Made by a program: the position numbers and the translations under genes
Notes under the pieces: model-generated
What the model was told of the DNA's origin: nothing
The model's database searches: none
Seen by the model: the letters and a program-made list of their open reading frames with translations, nothing else
Assembly (NCBI GenBank): GCA_902825775.1
Contig: CADECF010000020.1
Span: forward strand, 1-43,506
Direction of reading: 5' to 3'
Length of the DNA stretch: 43,506 bases
Source of the DNA: an uncultured Lysobacteraceae bacterium
Lineage (GTDB): Bacteria > Pseudomonadota > Gammaproteobacteria > Xanthomonadales > Xanthomonadaceae
Shown: positions 5,610-15,180 of the stretch, piece by piece
How the letters are laid out: each line of letters opens with the position of its first letter
How positions within the stretch are numbered: position 1 is the first letter of the stretch

Positions 5610-7973
5610 TCAGTGAACGCGATCACTCGCTTCAGCCGTGGTTTGCGCCGGATCGAGTTGCGCCGGGATCGCGCGCTCGCCGGCCAGCGCTTTGGCCCGA
5701 TCGTAGGCTTGCTGCCATTGCGCCGGTTGCCCCATCGCGCGCAACAGCCGGACCTGCAGCACGGCCATGTCGAAATCGTGATCGGCCCATGGCGCGACGC
5801 GGCCGATCAGTGCCCCGGCTTCGGCGGCCCGGCCGCGTTCGAGCAGCCAGGATGCATAGGCGTCGATCGCGATCGCGGTCTCTTCCGGCACGCCTTCGCG
5901 TTCGGCCAGGGCCACGGCCGCGCGGTAGGTGCGCTCCGCGGCGGTAGCATCGCCGCGCGCCCGCTGCAGGGTGGCCAGGGTCAGCCGCTCGGGCAAGGTA
6001 TCGCCGTAAGTGGCGACGGCATTTCGGGACGATGCGCCGAGATCGGCGGCCAGCGCGGCTTGTTCGCGCCGGAACGCGGTCCACGCGCGCAGCCGCGGAT
6101 TGGAATCGGGCGGCCACGCGCGCAATGCCGCATCGGCCATCGCCACCGCCCGCTGCGCTTCGCCGGCGCGGCGGGCCAGATCCACCCGCAGATAGTCGCG
6201 ACGCCCGTAATCGGCGGGCACCGCCAACGTCGCTTCGGGCATGGCCAGCAGCGTTCCGGCCTCGCGCAGCCGTCCCGCGAGGATCAGCACTTCGGCACGC
6301 GTGAGGATCAGGTCCGCGCGCTGGCTCGGGTCGCGCATGCGCGGCAGCATCGCCCACGCGCGGTCGCTCTCGGCGAGCGCGGAATCGGTGCGCAGCAGGG
6401 CCACGTGCACGCCCATCAGCACTTTGCGCGCGGTAGCCAGCTCGTTCATGGCGCCCATCGCTTTGAAATCCTCGGCCGCCTTTTGCAGATAGGGCAGCGC
6501 GTGCGCCGGACGCTGGCGATCGAATTCCAGGATGCCCAGATTGGCATCCACGCGCGCTACCGCCAGCGCATCGCCCATGGCCACCAGTTGCACGCGCGCG
6601 CGGCCCAGATCGGCCAGCGCGCGGTCGTATTGTTTCTGCAGCGAATACGCCACCGCACGGCCGCTCAGCGCCTGGCCGAGTTCCGCCGGATGCCGGCCGC
6701 CGCCGATCAGAGCGACCGACTGGTCGTAGGTGCGCTCAGCGTCGGTATAGCGATCCAGGCGGATCAGCATCGCACCGCGCGCATTGAGCAGGCGCGCGTG
6801 GAAGGCCGGGTCGCGACGCGATTCGTCGCTAGCCAGCGCGCGGTCCAGTGTCGCCAGGCCGCGTTGGTACTCGCCGGCGCGGAAATCGACTCGCGCCAAC
6901 TGATACTGCAATTGCGGTTGCGAACGCTGCAGCTCCGGCGCTTCCAACAGGATGCGCTGCGCGGTTTCGATCTCGTTGGCGAGCATCGCCGCGCGTGCGC
7001 GCTGCAAGCGTTCGGCGAGCGCGGGCATGTCCGATCCGTCCGGCGAGCGGCTGCCGCCGAGCGTCGGCGACAAGCGATCGGCGGCCAGCCGCGCCGCCTG
7101 CAGCAAGTCGGCATGACGCGCCTGCCCGCGTTGTTTCACGCCGCTCGCGTCGGTCGCGGTCAGCGCCACTTCCCACGCGTCCTGGGTTTGACGGGCCCGG
7201 CTGTCGACGATCCAGATCGCCCGCGTCGCCCGGCGCAGCGCCTGGCTGTCGTCCTTACGCTCCTGCTCGCGCAGCACGCCGAGCACGCTTTCGCTGGACA
7301 GCACCGGCAAACCCGCGCGATGCAGCCGATCGGCGACGAAATCCATCAGGCCCAGCCGCGCCCACGGCACATCGTTGGGTTCGGCGACGACGGTCGGCAA
7401 GACCATGATCGTCCTGCCGGACGGCAACGCTTCGGCGGTCTTGTGCGGCGGCACCGATATAGCCGATGACGGGCGCTGCAGCCACGCCCAGCCGAGCAAA
7501 AACAGCAATGCCAGCGCCGCTGCGCCGATCCACCCGCCGACGCGTCCGCGCCATGCGCTGCGCGCGGGTTCTTCGCCATCGATGGACGTCGCCGCGGGCG
7601 GGGATTCTGGCGCGTCCGGAACCGCGACGCCCGCAGCGTCCTCGTCGGCCGCGATTTCCGCCTGCGTCTGTTCCAACCAGCGGAAGCCATAGCGGGGCAC
7701 GGTGCGTATCGAATGCTGCTCGTGGCCGTCGTCGCCGACCGCACGCCGCGCGCGCAGCACGATTTGCGCGAGTTGCGCATCGGATACGTCTGCGCGGCCG
7801 AATACCGCCTGCACCAATTCGTCGCGGCTGACGGCGCGGTCGCGATGTTCGATCAGGCAGATCAGGCATTCGAACACGCGCGCCGGCAACGCCACGGCCT
7901 GGTTGCGCAGGCGCAGTTCGCGTGTGGCGAGATCGAGTACGTACTCCCCGAAACGATAGCGAGCGGTGGTCAT
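5610..7973 (-). CDS. CadC/ToxR-like winged-helix regulator with TM segment and TPR sensor domain
   Basis: 787 aa. Residues about 1-102 form an OmpR-type winged helix (YRFGEYVLDLATRELRL, LPARVFECLICLIEHR, VSRDELVQAVF, the recognition helix DAQLAQIVLRARRAVG, and the wing RTVPRYGFRW). A 40-residue acidic/proline linker follows, then one transmembrane helix around residues 153-175 (WIGAAALALLFLLGWAW). The remaining 600 residues are periplasmic and helical, with repeated TPR-like pairs of helices. This one-component layout reads a signal outside and regulates transcription from the membrane without phosphorylation. The start at 7973 fits the domain edge. It may control the LVIVD gene just downstream on the same strand. 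Confidence 0.9.
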   Translation of the reverse strand: MTTARYRFGEYVLDLATRELRLRNQAVALPARVFECLICLIEHRDRAVSRDELVQAVFGRADVSDAQLAQIVLRARRAVGDDGHEQHSIRTVPRYGFRWLEQTQAEIAADEDAAGVAVPDAPESPPAATSIDGEEPARSAWRGRVGGWIGAAALALLFLLGWAWLQRPSSAISVPPHKTAEALPSGRTIMVLPTVVAEPNDVPWARLGLMDFVADRLHRAGLPVLSSESVLGVLREQERKDDSQALRRATRAIWIVDSRARQTQDAWEVALTATDASGVKQRGQARHADLLQAARLAADRLSPTLGGSRSPDGSDMPALAERLQRARAAMLANEIETAQRILLEAPELQRSQPQLQYQLARVDFRAGEYQRGLATLDRALASDESRRDPAFHARLLNARGAMLIRLDRYTDAERTYDQSVALIGGGRHPAELGQALSGRAVAYSLQKQYDRALADLGRARVQLVAMGDALAVARVDANLGILEFDRQRPAHALPYLQKAAEDFKAMGAMNELATARKVLMGVHVALLRTDSALAESDRAWAMLPRMRDPSQRADLILTRAEVLILAGRLREAGTLLAMPEATLAVPADYGRRDYLRVDLARRAGEAQRAVAMADAALRAWPPDSNPRLRAWTAFRREQAALAADLGASSRNAVATYGDTLPERLTLATLQRARGDATAAERTYRAAVALAEREGVPEETAIAIDAYASWLLERGRAAEAGALIGRVAPWADHDFDMAVLQVRLLRAMGQPAQWQQAYDRAKALAGERAIPAQLDPAQTTAEASDRVH

Positions 7974-9405: not shown

Positions 9406-9701
9406 CATCATCGCCGTAGAGGCCATGTATTCGCCGACGACGCGCGTCGAATGCGTCTAGCAGCTCCGTACGCACTGCAAGGCTTCGCAGGTGCGTTGCG
9501 CAGATGAAACGTTTTCCGCATTTTGGCTCCTGTTTCAGAGGGAGCCGCGGGCGTTCTCGCATTTTTCGGCCTCGAATACTCCGGCGAAAACAATCAGCTA
9601 CGAAATATTAATGCGCGACGGCATTAATGATGCATGTCTTGTTTCGCGTCGTGAGCGGATGCCACCCCCGGGTGTCCTGTCGGCGTGCAGGAGAACAAGA
9701 T
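9406..9701. promoter_or_regulatory. Promoter region of the Fap-like operon with palindrome
   Basis: About 300 bases without a credible gene, between the terminator and the first operon gene. It contains ATTAATGC (9607-9614), six bases, GCATTAAT (9621-9628), a perfect 8-bp inverted repeat 73 bases before the chosen ATG. This is well placed for a transcription-factor operator or for a 5'-UTR hairpin. The upstream in-frame ATG at 9627 overlaps the palindrome and lacks a ribosome binding site. Confidence 0.45.
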
Positions 9702-10628
9702 ATGCATATCCGTAAATCACTCATCGCCACGGCGGTGCTGGTTGGCATCGGTATGACCGGCCAAGCATGGGCCCAGGCGGAAAACACAGAGAATGGCCCT
9801 GGACGCAATATCCAGATAGCGATAGACGACGATAGCGACAACTCCAACAGCAGCACTGGCGACAACCGCAACAACGACGGCTACGCCGACTCGTCCGGTT
9901 ACGGTTCAGCGGCTGCCAACAACGGCGGTACGGCTACCGCCAACTTCTCCAACTCCTTCAACTCCAGCAAAGCGATCGCGGTGACCCGTCTCGACGGTTA
10001 TGTCACCGACATCCGCGTGCGCGACATCGGCAATTACGCTGGCAACAGCGGCAATGCCAATGGCGGCGGCGGCGGTAGCGGCGGTGGCGGCTACGGCGGT
10101 TGGGGCAACGGCGGCAAAGGCGAAGGCGGCAAGGGCGACGGCGGTAGCGGCGGCGATGGCGGCCGCGGCGACGGCGACAGCGGCCATGCCGGCGCAGTAA
10201 GCCTCGCAGCAAGCGCGGGCGGCTCGGGTAATGGCGGCAGGGCGCGCGAGCGCGGCCCCGGCGCAGCCACGGGCGGCGCGGGCAGCGGCGGCGCAGGAAC
10301 GGCCACCAGCGGCGCGGCGACGGCCTCTACGGGTGCGGCATCCGGCACGGGCGGCTCAGGCGGTGCGGGCGGCGCAGGCACGGGCGGCTCGGGCGCGGGC
10401 GGCGCAGGCGTAGGCGGTGCCGGCAACGGCGCGGCCGGCGGCGCTGGCGGCGCGGGTGGTGCGAACTTCGTCGATGCCGGCACGTTCGACATGTCCAACG
10501 ACATGACGAGTGTCGGACAGACGGCTGCGGGCATCATGGTGGCGGCGCAGAACAGCGGCTTCGCCTCGCTGATCCAGCAGGGCGTGACCGTGCAGGCCAA
10601 CCTGACCGTCGGACCCAGCGCTCCGTAA
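9702..10628 (+). CDS. Exported Gly/Ala-rich silk-like protein, candidate major substrate of Fap-like system
   Basis: 308 aa. The ATG at 9702 is preceded by AGGAGA and begins a clear Sec signal peptide (MHIRKSLIATAVLVGIGM, cleavage likely after AWA). The mature N-terminus is Asn/Ser/Asp-rich (about 25-115). Residues about 120-265 are low complexity, built of GG, GGxG and GGAG units, much like silk or PE_PGRS repeats. A distinct C-terminus of about 50 residues ends in AAQNSG, SLIQQGVTVQANL. That ending resembles the end of the next gene product (IQNSG, LIQNGMIVNVQF). Position as first gene, signal peptide and low complexity suggest a secreted fibre or matrix protein. It does not carry FapC-type repeats that I can recognise. 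Confidence 0.72.
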   Translation: MHIRKSLIATAVLVGIGMTGQAWAQAENTENGPGRNIQIAIDDDSDNSNSSTGDNRNNDGYADSSGYGSAAANNGGTATANFSNSFNSSKAIAVTRLDGYVTDIRVRDIGNYAGNSGNANGGGGGSGGGGYGGWGNGGKGEGGKGDGGSGGDGGRGDGDSGHAGAVSLAASAGGSGNGGRARERGPGAATGGAGSGGAGTATSGAATASTGAASGTGGSGGAGGAGTGGSGAGGAGVGGAGNGAAGGAGGAGGANFVDAGTFDMSNDMTSVGQTAAGIMVAAQNSGFASLIQQGVTVQANLTVGPSAP

Positions 10629-10638
10629 GCGCGACCCA

Positions 10639-10675
10639 GATGCGCCGCGAGGGCGAAAGCCCTGCGCGGCGCATC
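10639..10675 (+). promoter_or_regulatory. Strong GAAA-loop hairpin after the first operon gene
   Basis: GATGCGCCGCG-AGGGC, tetraloop GAAA (10655-10658), then GCCCT-G-CGCGGCGCATC: a 16-pair stem with a single bulged base, starting 11 bases after the stop. With no T-tract it is more likely an mRNA 3'-end protecting or partial-attenuation element than a full terminator. It would favour higher expression of the first gene over downstream ones. Confidence 0.6.
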
Positions 10676-10759
10676 GCGTGCCCGTACGCAGCGCATCCGC
10701 GCGCCAACGCGCAAGCGTACACGTGCGGGCACGACACGCATGGCTGAAGGAGAACGACC

Positions 10760-11161
10760 ATGCCGGCATGCAAAACAACGGCACTCGCGGCAGCGGCGTT
10801 CTTGTCGGCGCTGATCGCAGGAGCGGCCTTCGCCGACGAACCGGCCGCCGTCGGCGCGCCCGTCGAAGCAACGGCGCGGCTGTCCTTCGCGGTACCGATC
10901 GAAGGCTTGGGTCCTGCCATGGACCCGACAACGCTCGAGGCTTATCGCGGCGGCGACGATTCGGTGGAAAACGACGTCGACATCCACGGACAAGTCGGCG
11001 GCAACACCGCGCAGAACACCGTCAGCGGCAACAACACGCTGGGCGGAGACGCGTTCTCCAACGCCAGCGGCATTTCCACCGTGATCCAGAACAGCGGGTC
11101 GAACGTGCTGATCCAGAACGGCATGATCGTCAACGTCCAGTTCATCGGATCCGGCCCATGA
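10760..11161 (+). CDS. Exported small protein, candidate minor substrate/nucleator of Fap-like system
   Basis: 133 aa, RBS AAGGAG at 10747-10752, Sec signal peptide (ALAAAAFLSALIAGAAFA). The mature protein has no cysteines and contains Asn/Gly/Gln/Ser-rich segments typical of amyloid-prone secreted proteins (QVGGNTAQNTVSGNNTLGGD, then FSNASGISTVIQNSG). The C-terminal LIQNGMIVNVQF parallels the C-terminus of the preceding protein. In the Pseudomonas operon the small FapB nucleator sits next to the major FapC protein, so a comparable role is plausible but unproven. The stop overlaps the next start (ATGA). Confidence 0.7.
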   Translation: MPACKTTALAAAAFLSALIAGAAFADEPAAVGAPVEATARLSFAVPIEGLGPAMDPTTLEAYRGGDDSVENDVDIHGQVGGNTAQNTVSGNNTLGGDAFSNASGISTVIQNSGSNVLIQNGMIVNVQFIGSGP

Positions 11162-11853
11162 GACTGTGCTTGCTGGCGGCATGCTTGCTGGCAGCGCCTG
11201 CCGTCGCGCTCGTCGCCACCGACGCGCGCGCCGGCTCCACGGAAGTGCGCGCCGCCAACGGCAGCTATACGGTACGGCTGACGAGCCTGAAAGAAGCGCG
11301 CTTCAAGACCACCGTGCGCCAGCAGTACGACTTCAGCTGCGGCTCGGCGGCGGTGGCGACCCTGCTGACCTATCAGTACGACCAGCCGGTCAGCGAGACC
11401 GATGTGTTCATGCGCATGTACGCGAACGGCGACCAGGCCAAGATCCGCGCCGAAGGTTTTTCGCTGCTGGACATGCGCCGCTACTTCGAATCGCTCGGCT
11501 ACGAGGCCGACGGCTTCGAACTGCCGCTGGACAAATTGGCCGAGGAAGGATTGCCGGCGATCGTGCTGCTCAACGAACGCGGTTACCGGCATTTCGTGGT
11601 GGTCAAAGGCCTGCGCAACGGCCGCGTGCTGATCGGCGATCCGGCGATGGGCACGCGCGCGTTGTCGCGCAAACGTTTCGAACAGCTATGGGACAACGGC
11701 GTGCTGTTCGTGGTCCACAACAAACGCGAGCTGGCGCATTTCAATACCGGCAACGACTGGCGCGTGGCGCCGATGGCGCCGGTGGACCAGGCGATCCAAC
11801 GCACCGGCCTGCAGAACATCGTCATGCCGCGACGCGGACCGGGAGACATCTGA
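11158..11853 (+). CDS. fapD-like: C39-family cysteine peptidase, FapD-like
   Basis: 231 aa including a signal peptide (MRLCLLAACLLAAPAVAL). It has the C39 papain-like fold signature: catalytic Cys61 in QQYDFSCGSAAVATLL, His145 in GYRHFVVVKG, and Asp161 in IGDPAMG. FapD of Pseudomonas is a C39 peptidase of this length that is required for fibre secretion. It may process or escort substrates in the periplasm. Unlike bacteriocin exporters it is not fused to an ABC transporter, and none is nearby. It overlaps the preceding gene by 4 bases and is followed 7 bases later by the FapE-like gene, so it is part of the operon. Confidence 0.85.
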   Translation: MRLCLLAACLLAAPAVALVATDARAGSTEVRAANGSYTVRLTSLKEARFKTTVRQQYDFSCGSAAVATLLTYQYDQPVSETDVFMRMYANGDQAKIRAEGFSLLDMRRYFESLGYEADGFELPLDKLAEEGLPAIVLLNERGYRHFVVVKGLRNGRVLIGDPAMGTRALSRKRFEQLWDNGVLFVVHNKRELAHFNTGNDWRVAPMAPVDQAIQRTGLQNIVMPRRGPGDI

Positions 11854-11860
11854 AACGGCC

Positions 11861-12370
11861 ATGCGCACGATTCCGCACCGCTGGCTGCGACGCCTGCCAT
11901 GGCTGATGGCCGGCTTGGTTTGCGTTACGACCGCGCATGCGCAGGATGCGGACAAAGCTTCGAATTTCGACCGGCCGGTGGTTTTCGACCGGCTCGAAAC
12001 CCTGCGCGGCGGCTTCGACCTGCCTTCCGGATTGCAGGCGTCGTTCGGCTTCGAGCGTGTGGTCTATCTCAACGGCGAACTCGTCGCCACCACGCGCGTC
12101 AGCATTCCCGACATCGGCAACATGACGCCCGAACAGGCGCAAGCGTTGGCGTCGGCGAAACAGACCACATTGCTGCAAGTGGGGCAGGGCAACGTTTACC
12201 GGGGCAATTCCGCAGCGGGCGGGTTGGTCGTCCAGAACACGCTCGACAACCAAGACATCCAGGTGCTGACCACGATCGACGCCGGCACCAACATGCTGGG
12301 CCACTACAAGGATCTCAACACGGAGGCGGCCCTACGCGATGCGCTGATCGCGGCGCCGGGCTCGCCTTGA
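11861..12370 (+). CDS. fapE-like: FapE-like exported protein
   Basis: 169 aa with a signal peptide ending near TAHAQ. It sits between the C39 peptidase and the porin, exactly where FapE lies in fapABCDEF. The mature sequence is soluble and lacks low complexity. A central segment (NGELVATTRVSIPDIGNMT, QAQALASA) is followed by a C-terminal part with VVQNTLDNQDIQVLTTIDAG, whose QN...IQ spacing recalls the C-termini of the two upstream substrates. FapE in Pseudomonas is exported and found with fibres. The assignment rests mainly on gene order and general features, so moderate confidence for the exact orthology. Confidence 0.65.
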   Translation: MRTIPHRWLRRLPWLMAGLVCVTTAHAQDADKASNFDRPVVFDRLETLRGGFDLPSGLQASFGFERVVYLNGELVATTRVSIPDIGNMTPEQAQALASAKQTTLLQVGQGNVYRGNSAAGGLVVQNTLDNQDIQVLTTIDAGTNMLGHYKDLNTEAALRDALIAAPGSP

Positions 12371-13677
12371 ATACGCATCCGGCGCGAATTTCGATCCTGG
12401 CGGCCTGCCTGGGCGCCGCGTTTGCCGGCGCCGGCGGCGCGGCGCACGCACAGCAAGCTTCCGACACCCGGCTGGACGCGTTGCAGCAGCAGATCGACGC
12501 GCAAACGCTGAAGCTCGAGCAGATGCGACAGGCGTTGAGCGACCAGGAGAGCAGCGTCGCCGAGCTGCAGCGCGCCTTGAACGAAGAACGCCTCGCCGGC
12601 GCGCGCGCGCGAGGCGGCACGATATCCGCCTATCAGGACATGCCCGCGCAGACGGCGGCGCAGGAGCGCATCGAACAGCAACCGAGCCAGCCGGTCGGCC
12701 GCGCGCCGGAACCGGAAACGCGGCCGCCGGAAGTCGCGCAGATCTTCGATCAGCCCGGCGTGCTCACGCCGAGCGGCAAATTCGTGCTCGAACCATCGCT
12801 GCAATTCGGCTACTGGGCCAACGATCGCGTCGCGCTGGTCGGCTACACCGTGATTCCCGCCATCCTGATCGGCTTGATCGACGTGCGTCAGGTCAAGACG
12901 ACCACCGCCACCGCCGCACTGACCGGGCGCTACGGCATAGGCAAACGTTTCGAACTGGAAGCCAAGGTGCCGTACGTCTACATCGACGGCGACACCATCA
13001 GCCGCGAAATCTTCACCGGCAGCGCGGTCGACCGCGTGTTCAACGCCAGCGGGCACGGCATGGGCGACGTCGAAGTCACGGCACGTTACCAGTTGAACCA
13101 GGGCGGCATGGACAAGGCGTTCTGGGTCGGCTGGTTGCGCTACAAGAGCCGTACCGGCCGCGACTTGTTCGAAGTCACCACGGACTGCGTGACGCGCTGC
13201 GTCGGCAACGCGACCGGCACCGGATTGCCGCTGGAACTGCCCACCGGCACCGGTTTCGAAGCGCTGCAGCCCGGCGTGACCTGGCTGTATCCCACCGATC
13301 CGGTCGTCTTCTTCGGCAGCTTCAGTTATCTGCACAATTTCCCGCGCAAGAACGTCACGCGGCGGGTGCTGGGCGGCGTCGAGGAGCCGCTGGGCGAAAT
13401 CGATGTCGGCGACATCTTCGGCTTCAACGTCGGCATGGGCCTGGCCCTGAACGAAAAAGCCTCGATCAGCCTCGGCTACGACCAGAGCGTCATCGGCAAG
13501 ACCCAGCAGAACGGCCAGGACGCGCCGGGCGCGGTGCGGATCGTGCTGGGCACGTTGCTGATCGGCGCTTCGTACCGCTACAACGAGCGCACCACGCTGA
13601 ACTTGTCGCTGGGCGTGGGCGTTACCCGCGATACGCCGGATCTGACGCTGACCGCACGGCTACCGACGTCGTACTGA
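12367..13677 (+). CDS. fapF-like: FapF-like outer-membrane porin with N-terminal coiled coil
   Basis: The only start that includes the signal peptide is TTG at 12367, overlapping the previous stop (TTGA). The product (436 aa) begins MNTHPARISILAACLG and has a cleavage site near AHA-QQ. Residues about 32-80 are a heptad-rich coiled coil (LDALQQQIDAQTLKLEQMRQ). A Pro/Glu linker follows, then from about residue 140 a beta-barrel of amphipathic strands (FVLEPSLQFGYWAND, FELEAKVPYVYI, GDVEVTARYQLN, ASISLGYDQSV, ending LTLTARLPTSY). FapF is a trimeric 12-strand barrel with an N-terminal gating coiled coil and about this length. It is the probable export pore for the fibre proteins encoded upstream. 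Confidence 0.8.
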   Translation: MNTHPARISILAACLGAAFAGAGGAAHAQQASDTRLDALQQQIDAQTLKLEQMRQALSDQESSVAELQRALNEERLAGARARGGTISAYQDMPAQTAAQERIEQQPSQPVGRAPEPETRPPEVAQIFDQPGVLTPSGKFVLEPSLQFGYWANDRVALVGYTVIPAILIGLIDVRQVKTTTATAALTGRYGIGKRFELEAKVPYVYIDGDTISREIFTGSAVDRVFNASGHGMGDVEVTARYQLNQGGMDKAFWVGWLRYKSRTGRDLFEVTTDCVTRCVGNATGTGLPLELPTGTGFEALQPGVTWLYPTDPVVFFGSFSYLHNFPRKNVTRRVLGGVEEPLGEIDVGDIFGFNVGMGLALNEKASISLGYDQSVIGKTQQNGQDAPGAVRIVLGTLLIGASYRYNERTTLNLSLGVGVTRDTPDLTLTARLPTSY

Positions 13678-13893: not shown

Positions 13894-15180
13894 ATGAAAA
13901 CGATTCGAATCGCCGCATTGGCGGCTTTGCTCGGCACGACAGGCGCACATGCGCAAAGCGGCACTCAGGCCGCATACGACGCTTTCGCGCCAGCGTACGT
14001 GGTCAGCTCTCCGGACACCTACCATAAAAGCCTCGGCGGCATCGCCCGCAACGCCCAGAGCCGGCGCGACGGCGCTGGCAACGACGTGGTGATCTCCGAG
14101 GTGAGCCAGCACCAGCTGCCCGACGTCACCGAACGCATCCACTCGCGCGAACGGCGCTGCGGCGGATTCTTCTCTTTCGAGACCCGCGCGGAAGCCGAAG
14201 CGTTCGTGCATTCCGCCGTATCGCCCGCCGCGGTCGCTTCGATTCCTATCGTCTACACCATCGACAACCAGGCCACCGTCATGCCGTGGCTGCCGCAGGT
14301 CCGCGAAGACAATATCTACCGCACCATCAAGCACCTTTCGACCGCCTACCAGAACCGCTACTACGCCAGCGCCAATGCCCATGCGCCGTCCGTCTGGATC
14401 CACGACACCTGGCTGGGCTTGGCCGCGGGCCGAGACGATGTGAGCGCGGTGCTGTTTCCGTGCAGCGCGTGCGGCAACCAATATTCGGTGATCCTGAGCA
14501 TCGAAGGCAGCGAAAATCCGGACGAAATCGTGGTGCTCGGCGCGCATCTGGATTCGATCGCTCTCGGCGGAAACACCAAAGCCATGCTCGCCCCGGGCGC
14601 GGACGACGACGCCTCCGGCATCGCCACGTTGACCGAAGCGCTGCGCGTGGCGCTGGCCAGCGGCTGGAAACCCAAACGAACCGTGATGTTCATGGCCTAC
14701 GCGGCCGAAGAAGTCGGCTTGCGCGGCTCGCTCGCGATCGCCGAATCGTTCAAGACCGACGGCAGAAAAGTAGTCGGCGTCCTGCAGCTGGACATGACCA
14801 ACTACAAATCCGGCAACGGCCCCGACTTGCGCCTGATGACCGACAACTCCGATCCGGCCTTGCAATCGTTCGTCGCCGCCCTGTTCGAAGAGTATCTGGC
14901 CCCGATCGGCCCGACGCTAGGCAGCTTCACTTGCGGTTACGGTTGTTCCGATCACGCTTCGTGGACGATCAAGGGCTACCCGTCGGCGATGCTGTTCGAA
15001 GCCGGCGACGACGACGGCGGCTATTTCCCCTACATCCATTCGCCGCACGACAAGCTGGAGAACATGGGCGATTCGGCCGGCCGCAGCGTTTATTTCGCGC
15101 AGATGGCATTGGCGTTCATGGGCGAAGTGGGCAAGACGGCAGCCGGCACGCCTGGCGGGCGCGTAGCCGACGCGCGCTGA
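13894..15180 (+). CDS. Secreted M28-family zinc aminopeptidase
   Basis: 428 aa. ATG 13894 starts a signal peptide (MKTIRIAALAALLGTTGAHA); the longer frame upstream is non-conserved. The M28 catalytic domain (about 185-410) shows the two-zinc ligand set: VVLGAHLDS (His), PGADDDASG (Asp bridging), YAAEEVGLRGS (Glu-Glu), LQLDMTN (Asp), and SDHASW (last His). It resembles the Vibrio proteolyticus/Aeromonas leucyl aminopeptidase type that trims extracellular peptides. There is a propeptide-like region before residue 120. It is convergent with the arginase gene, with only 2 bases between the stops. Function assignment is secure; natural substrates are unknown. Confidence 0.93.
   Translation: MKTIRIAALAALLGTTGAHAQSGTQAAYDAFAPAYVVSSPDTYHKSLGGIARNAQSRRDGAGNDVVISEVSQHQLPDVTERIHSRERRCGGFFSFETRAEAEAFVHSAVSPAAVASIPIVYTIDNQATVMPWLPQVREDNIYRTIKHLSTAYQNRYYASANAHAPSVWIHDTWLGLAAGRDDVSAVLFPCSACGNQYSVILSIEGSENPDEIVVLGAHLDSIALGGNTKAMLAPGADDDASGIATLTEALRVALASGWKPKRTVMFMAYAAEEVGLRGSLAIAESFKTDGRKVVGVLQLDMTNYKSGNGPDLRLMTDNSDPALQSFVAALFEEYLAPIGPTLGSFTCGYGCSDHASWTIKGYPSAMLFEAGDDDGGYFPYIHSPHDKLENMGDSAGRSVYFAQMALAFMGEVGKTAAGTPGGRVADAR

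Follow-up and report, generated by a model that had tools for sequence, protein, structure and literature searches.

The window analysed here, a stretch of 43,506 nucleotides of DNA from an uncultured Lysobacteraceae bacterium (contig CADECF010000020.1), carries on its forward strand an operon of five genes, here called G1 to G5. We read this operon as a system for the export and assembly of a surface or biofilm matrix protein which is related to the functional amyloid (Fap) system but separate from it, and we give this reading a probability of about 0.7. Judged by the sequences the operon should work like Fap and appears to be a widely conserved sister system, and it most likely exports a protein of the cell surface or the biofilm matrix, which would form a fibre or a coat. 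The five genes are:

9702-10628, forward strand: G1, exported Gly-rich protein of 308 aa with a Sec signal, an N-terminal part rich in Asn, Ser and Asp, a Gly-rich core and a conserved C-terminal module.
10760-11161, forward strand: G2, small exported subunit of 133 aa with a Sec signal, a double-glycine leader ending in G64-G65 and a mature part of 68 residues.
11158-11853, forward strand: G3, exported C39 cysteine peptidase, FapD-like, 231 aa.
11861-12370, forward strand: G4, FapE-like exported protein of 169 aa with a Sec signal, a double-glycine leader ending in G50-G51 and a mature part of 118 residues.
12367-13677, forward strand: G5, FapF-type outer-membrane barrel with an N-terminal coiled-coil-like segment and a TTG start.

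A preliminary description of this DNA had listed five genes, tightly packed from the second onward, and had proposed a divergent Fap-type export set. The open reading frames (ORFs) could be confirmed: G2 and G3 as well as G4 and G5 overlap by 4 bases, and G3 and G4 are separated by 7 bases. The Fap-type nature of the export set is borne out by the profile searches. G3 matches the Pfam family Peptidase_C39 (E 1.9e-23) and the NCBIfam models FapD (E 2.2e-42) and FilB (E 4.3e-39). Both a signal peptide and the catalytic triad can be read from its sequence, as for a FapD-type periplasmic C39 peptidase, and the triad residues given in the preliminary description, Cys61/His145/Asp161, are kept in 86 of the 87 G3 proteins aligned, and the remaining one is gapped there. 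In Pfam only C39 domains are found, with no ABC transporter domain fused to G3. G5 matches NCBIfam FapF over residues 23-433 (E 1.3e-44), and a profile built from 20 G5 proteins finds FapF (5o67) as the best PDB match with E 1.3e-33, the first match other than FapF having E 0.021. G5 is therefore predicted to be a FapF-type outer-membrane barrel and not a member of an unrelated transporter family. For G1, G2 and G4 no Pfam family was found at E up to 1. The NCBIfam search gave no match for G1, only FapB at E 0.38 for G2, and for G4 only a UMP kinase at E 0.066, which is taken as a chance match; FapC was not matched by any protein of the operon and FapE was not matched by G4.

The gene set recurs in other genomes. 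A G5-like match is present in 79 of 198 genomes of the window's family, and in 40 of these it is of the window type (E under 1e-120, as read from the table); 14 of the 40 also possess a canonical-type barrel. From the 39 other window-type loci of the family 19 were fetched, and all 19 contain relatives of all five genes in the same order. This recurrence indicates that the set is more than a chance arrangement, and with it both the proposed order D-E-F and the co-occurrence of the first two genes with the barrel hold up. We also scanned named genomes with G2 and obtained 504 related stretches, of which the best 80 were analysed (some are the same loci as in the family set). Apart from one metagenome-assembled genome (MAG) labelled Akkermansia, these 80 belong to Beta- and Gammaproteobacteria. 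The hosts are Luteimonas, Lysobacter, Pseudoxanthomonas, Rhodanobacter, Dyella and Povalibacter, and there are many Burkholderiales, including Massilia, Duganella, Cupriavidus, Ralstonia, Rhodoferax and Polaromonas. The operon is common to many soil and water bacteria. The C39 peptidase on the contig labelled Akkermansia (L107) falls among those of Burkholderiales, and this contig is therefore probably a contaminant.

Anywhere in the 80 loci a match was found to G2 in 80, to G3 in 80, to G4 in 78 and to G5 in 75, and in 70 a single ORF carries both conserved ends of G1, so that the Gly-rich gene belongs to the operon set. By our spacing rule G2, G3 and G4 stand in a row in 73 of the 80 loci, and all five genes are collinear in 48; the non-collinear rest results partly from contig ends, a broken frame (L108) and the choice of start sites. 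Wider searches gave a G4 match in 13 of the 369 genomes screened in the class and a G2 match in 14 of 398 from the phylum; both counts include the window's own genome. One genome (G684:C11) has two G2-like matches about 3 kb apart (L194 and L199), and the leader of L194 ends in SGR.

The genome of the window keeps a canonical fap operon on another contig (L033, G000:C5:40500-49500), which was found through a second C39 peptidase and barrel. Its proteins match the NCBIfam models FapB (E 3.5e-31), FapC (two proteins, E 6.2e-29 and 1.8e-26), FapD (E 1.8e-63), FapE (E 4.3e-13) and FapF (E 5.8e-104), all of them, like the window proteins, below the curated cut-offs: G3 reaches 144.8 bits and the canonical FapD 213.9 at a cut-off of 330, and G5 reaches 152.6 bits and the canonical FapF 348.2 at a cut-off of 700. 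An extra ORF in the place of FapA has no model match and is a FapA candidate by its place only. This candidate, FapB, one of the two FapC, FapD, FapE and FapF were used as tblastn queries against the window. Within the operon FapD (E 4e-41) and FapF (E 3e-38) were matched; elsewhere in the window the matches were at chance level (FapE 0.88; FapF 0.069 and 0.19). The FapA candidate, FapB and FapC gave no match, which agrees with the earlier statement that a FapA is missing. A tree was calculated from 84 of the 87 G3-type peptidases (three were dropped by length) together with 21 canonical FapD, all from the window's family. In this unrooted tree the G3-type peptidases and the canonical FapD lie on opposite sides of one 100/99 branch. 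The window operon is a lineage of its own beside the canonical fap operon of the same genome.

The gene order and the homologues of FapD, FapE and FapF would also fit a divergent fap operon, in which G1 corresponds to FapC and G2 to FapB, the repeats have eroded beyond recognition and the product is an ordinary Fap amyloid. As in FapC and FapB, a module is shared between G1 and G2, and G2 aligns weakly to the FapB/FapC repeat region (E 0.0024 with a probability of 12%, suggestive only; E 0.0025 with FapB alone). The C-terminus of G1, however, does not match the FapB/FapC profile (E 0.053), and the published Fap repeat motif occurs in G1 and G2 no better than in shuffled sequences, which is a weak test of low power because even the canonical FapB and FapC of the same genome miss 4 of its 10 fixed positions. 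FapC carries a C-terminal CxxC, and both FapC of the same genome have it, but none of 75 G1 and 89 G2 proteins contains CxxC in the last 30 residues. Together with the full branch between the peptidases and the canonical operon kept in the same genome, this makes a divergent fap operon an unlikely explanation. The earlier statement that FapC repeats cannot be recognised thus stands, within the power of the motif test. Since the repeat-bearing subunits, a defining feature of Fap, were tested for and not found, we do not file the window system as Fap.

Both G2 and G4 possess behind the Sec signal an L..xRGG-type pattern, the double-glycine leader of C39 substrates, which is new relative to the preliminary description. 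In the alignments L59, R63, G64 and G65 of G2 are invariant (20/20), as are L45, R49, G50 and G51 of G4 (19/19; this alignment omits L051, which has a long insert and carries the G4 leader too). Counting as distinct those proteins that differ in the last 60 residues, the pattern is present in 88 of 89 G2 and in all 88 G4, where shuffled sequences give means of 0.27 and 1.05. It is near chance in G1 (1/75, shuffle mean 1.25) and G3 (3/87, shuffle mean 1.36). Position -12 of the leader is V, I, L or M in 81/88 G2 and 81/88 G4, and position -4 is Leu or Met in 55/88 and 68/88, respectively. The AlphaFold models of G2 and G4 have a short helix that ends at the leader motif, with low to moderate confidence. 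In one distant relative (G268:C5, L192), beside two G1-like genes, the G2 leader ends in RGR instead of RGG.

The same leader is found at the same place in canonical FapE, with K or R for the second Gly: all 20 FapE in the 21 canonical loci of the family have it (none was found in L068), and Leu47 and Gly52 do not vary among the 23 aligned FapE. Elsewhere in the class 8 of 16 loci show the pattern, in forms such as LAQMRGRF and LAQMRGKF, one of them being a gene already counted; two others have Met for Leu, and the remaining six have no readable FapE frame. The profiles of G4 and FapE align exactly over the leader (E 3.3e-6, probability 88%, 34 columns). The fourth gene had been placed as E in the order D-E-F before, but it clearly resembles FapE only over the leader; the mature part of G4 gave no match to the FapE profile (E 0.15), so that the name FapE-like rests on the leader. 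G2 as a relative of FapE was tried and rejected (E 3.7e-4 and a probability of 36% with leaders, E 0.17 with the mature part only).

The L..xRGG pattern is somewhat above chance also in G5 (7/83, shuffle mean 2.40). These seven barrels (L109, L114, L116, L118, L119, L128 and L140) have the full pattern near residue 75-106, behind the coiled coil, and there the C39 peptidase might also cut the barrel. Of the 83 G5 proteins 65 have the anchor pattern of the linker and 18 lack it; 9 of the 65, the window's own included, carry RGG alone in the linker.

A textbook double-glycine leader combined with a C39 peptidase and a small mature peptide (63-76 residues among the G2 relatives) could also be expected of a microcin-like system, in which G2 would be a peptide toxin released via the pore and G1 and G4 would be accessories. 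In the window, however, a Sec signal precedes the leader, and Pfam shows no ABC transporter domain on the peptidase, which is a free protein. Among the five genes none is an ABC exporter and none resembles an immunity gene. Moreover G2 shows strong conservation from genus to genus and has its module in common with G1, and we therefore consider a microcin-like system very improbable.

The Gly-rich core of G1, for which 140 residues had been claimed, is present and measures 137 residues with 49% Gly and 19% Ala. In 60 of 75 G1 proteins the core could be cut out by pattern; its length ranges from 89 to 576 residues with a median of 42% Gly. A Gly spacing of three is enriched (mean z 3.55, 87% above 2), with little signal at lags 6 and 9 (mean z 0.71 and -0.48). 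In the GGx pattern x is mostly A, D, S, G or N, and the spacing by three would suit short GGx stretches. A motif R.RERG was seen in the core of only 11 of 75 G1 and was dropped. Conservation in G1 lies outside the core, in the N-terminal part and in a C-terminal module that is rich in Asn and Gln, comprises about 40 residues and contains AAGIMVAAQNSG and QQ.V.VQANL. Profiles of this C-terminus and of mature G2 match with E 8e-7 (3.5e-6 with all distinct sequences), which indicates that the two share one homologous module. The preliminary description has to be corrected here, as G2 appears to be a subunit that is itself exported and has a module in common with the G1 C-terminus. G2 and G4 profiles match with E 2.4e-9 with leaders and 1.2e-4 without, and between G1 and G4 there is no direct match. 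All these E-values are for single comparisons, and the reversed-profile controls gave E 0.009 or worse. The distant relative G268:C5 has two G1-like genes (L200 and L201) with the same C-terminal module and Asp-Asn-Ser-type repeats but no Gly-rich core, and the core may therefore be an insert that can be exchanged.

Cores with a median of 42% Gly, the spacing of three and the GGx pattern would also be in line with a surface coat or adhesin that is Gly-rich, of polyglycine-II-like or hydrogel type, and that is exported via the Fap-type pore without forming a cross-beta fibre. Against this it can be said that conservation lies in the two ends of G1 and not in the core, that the core may be an add-on as the two G1-like proteins lack it, and that lags 6 and 9 show little. 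We regard such a coat or adhesin as possible, if doubtful.

Two further features concern the expression of the operon:

10639-10675, forward strand: strong RNA hairpin directly after the G1 stop codon, no T-run.
9619-9634, forward strand: weak -24/-12 site of sigma-54 type in front of G1, its GG and GC correctly spaced.

The first 75 nt after G1 in the window have a minimum free energy of -50.2 and a z of -6.0. In 69 loci the mean z of this stretch is -3.4, compared with -0.65 to +0.18 after G2 to G5, and z is under -2 in 80% of the stretches after G1 and in 3-16% of those after the other genes. The hairpin is a possible mRNA stabiliser or partial stop and may keep G1 in excess. The sigma-54-type site scores 12.0, and sites at the same place in L034-L036 score 12.0, 12.0 and 13.0. 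Among 68 relatives 33 have a site with a score of at least 13 at 70-112 bases before G1, where 30 shuffles yield 0.33 on average and at most 2. Sixteen of the 80 loci contain a sigma-54 activator, all from a single sequence cluster, and the one that was scanned has a VpsR domain. In Vibrio, VpsR acts as a regulator of biofilms. A linkage to sigma-54 and VpsR is seen in part of the relatives, and in the window's genome a single VpsR match lies about 5 kb away from the canonical fap operon. As to the surroundings, the gene downstream (13897-15180) codes for an M28 aminopeptidase (NCBIfam LapA-like, E 4.8e-51), and upstream on the reverse strand (5610-7973) an OmpR/CadC-type DNA-binding domain is followed by TPR repeats. 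An Rfam scan and a tRNA search of the window gave no match.

Taken together we propose that Sec would carry all five proteins across the inner membrane. In the periplasm the peptidase G3 would then cut G2 and G4 after RGG and so remove the double-glycine leader, and G5, a pore of the FapF type whose coiled coil lies in the periplasm, would by homology export G1 and the mature G2 and G4. G4 would stay near the pore like FapE. G2 may nucleate and the related C-terminal module of G1 may add onto it, by which the variable Gly-rich core of G1 would be displayed as fibre or coat. We would give even odds to the wider proposal that Fap has here a widespread and so far undescribed sister, in which a Gly-rich protein with a variable core replaces the repeat amyloid, a partner of a single module nucleates, and the leaders behind the Sec signal disclose a substrate rule for FapD-type peptidases which includes canonical FapE, cut at LxxMRG-R/K.

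A number of points weigh against a separate Fap-related assembly system. G1 has no double-glycine leader, and the handling of the main substrate is therefore left unexplained. The AlphaFold model of G2 has a mean pLDDT of 57 with an almost structureless mature part, that of G4 has a mean pLDDT of 70 and no PDB match at E 0.001 or better, and PDB sequence searches with the G2 and G4 profiles yielded nothing useful. The mature part of G4 lacks the match to FapE, the C-terminus of G1 lacks one to FapB/FapC, and the faint similarity of G2 to FapB/FapC has to be counted here as well. In 13 of the 80 loci the barrel is on the opposite strand (divergent in 10, convergent in 3). If the start sites were picked correctly, the FapF-type barrels of L136, L137 and L149, and that of L135 as far as its visible start goes, seem to have no periplasmic coiled coil. 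Finally the sigma-54-type site of the window is weak, since its score is reached by 2.6% of 500 shuffles in that interval and by 16% anywhere in 450 bases.

FapD and its catalytic Cys are needed for the secretion of FapC; the target of FapD was called unclear, the Fap proteins having no canonical C39 sequences, and FapE was the sole protein of the operon with complete N-terminal processing, while FapF was also considered (Rouse et al. 2017, PMC5557850). A 2018 review describes the substrate of FapD as yet to be determined and mentions that homologues of fapD and fapF lie together in five further phyla (PMC6173800). The role of FapD is unclear according to a 2022 review (PMC9268375), and in a 2025 review FapD is thought to process FapE and FapF (PMC12822426). 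In view of these accounts the leaders of G2 and G4, with the like leader of canonical FapE, would point to the target of FapD. In accepted fap operons fapA is often lost, and FapD and FapF profiles match many proteins outside fap operons (Dueholm 2013, PMC3792158); together with the homologues in further phyla, this means that distant kin of fapD and fapF have already been noticed in print. The 2025 review regards Fap as evolutionarily 'fixed' with three repeats almost universal, and its screen required FapB/C repeats and would thus pass over operons of the window type (PMC12822426). In the part of the literature on Fap relatives that was surveyed we found no description of the five-gene operon. 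The leader sites are canonical and nearly invariant in the sister system, and the same leader with G-K/R occurs in canonical FapE, which may show what FapD does in Fap. An exported fibre or coat that is rich in Gly and has a variable core would be of interest for biofilm biology and for protein materials.

Among the known systems PE_PGRS proteins differ in that no PE domain precedes the Gly-rich part of G1 (no Pfam match at E up to 1). In class II microcin export by peptidase-containing ABC transporters a double-glycine leader is also cut by a C39 peptidase, but in the window the leaders stand behind a Sec signal, and G3 is a free, exported peptidase. Curli (CsgA/CsgB/CsgG) would be similar in outline, with a main subunit, a small one that resembles a nucleator, and a pore dedicated to them; the pore of the window is, however, FapF-type, and no Csg model appears among the Pfam and NCBIfam matches of the five proteins. 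The Fil proteins of Acinetobacter ('putative pilus' FilB/FilC) are known to us here only by their NCBIfam names and one literature title. FilC matches G5 with E 5e-10, in addition to the FilB match of G3, but G5 is far closer to FapF and no Fil model is among the matches of G1, G2 and G4. The likeness to Fap includes the C39 peptidase with a Sec signal, the FapF-type barrel, a protein with a leader like that of FapE and two exported substrates ahead of D-E-F. The window operon differs from Fap in that FapB/FapC repeats, CxxC and FapA were not found, in the barrel sitting on the other strand in some relatives, and in its C39 peptidases, which form a separate group; in place of the Fap subunits it has a main substrate with a Gly-rich variable core and a small subunit of a single module, and its leaders are of the canonical GG type.

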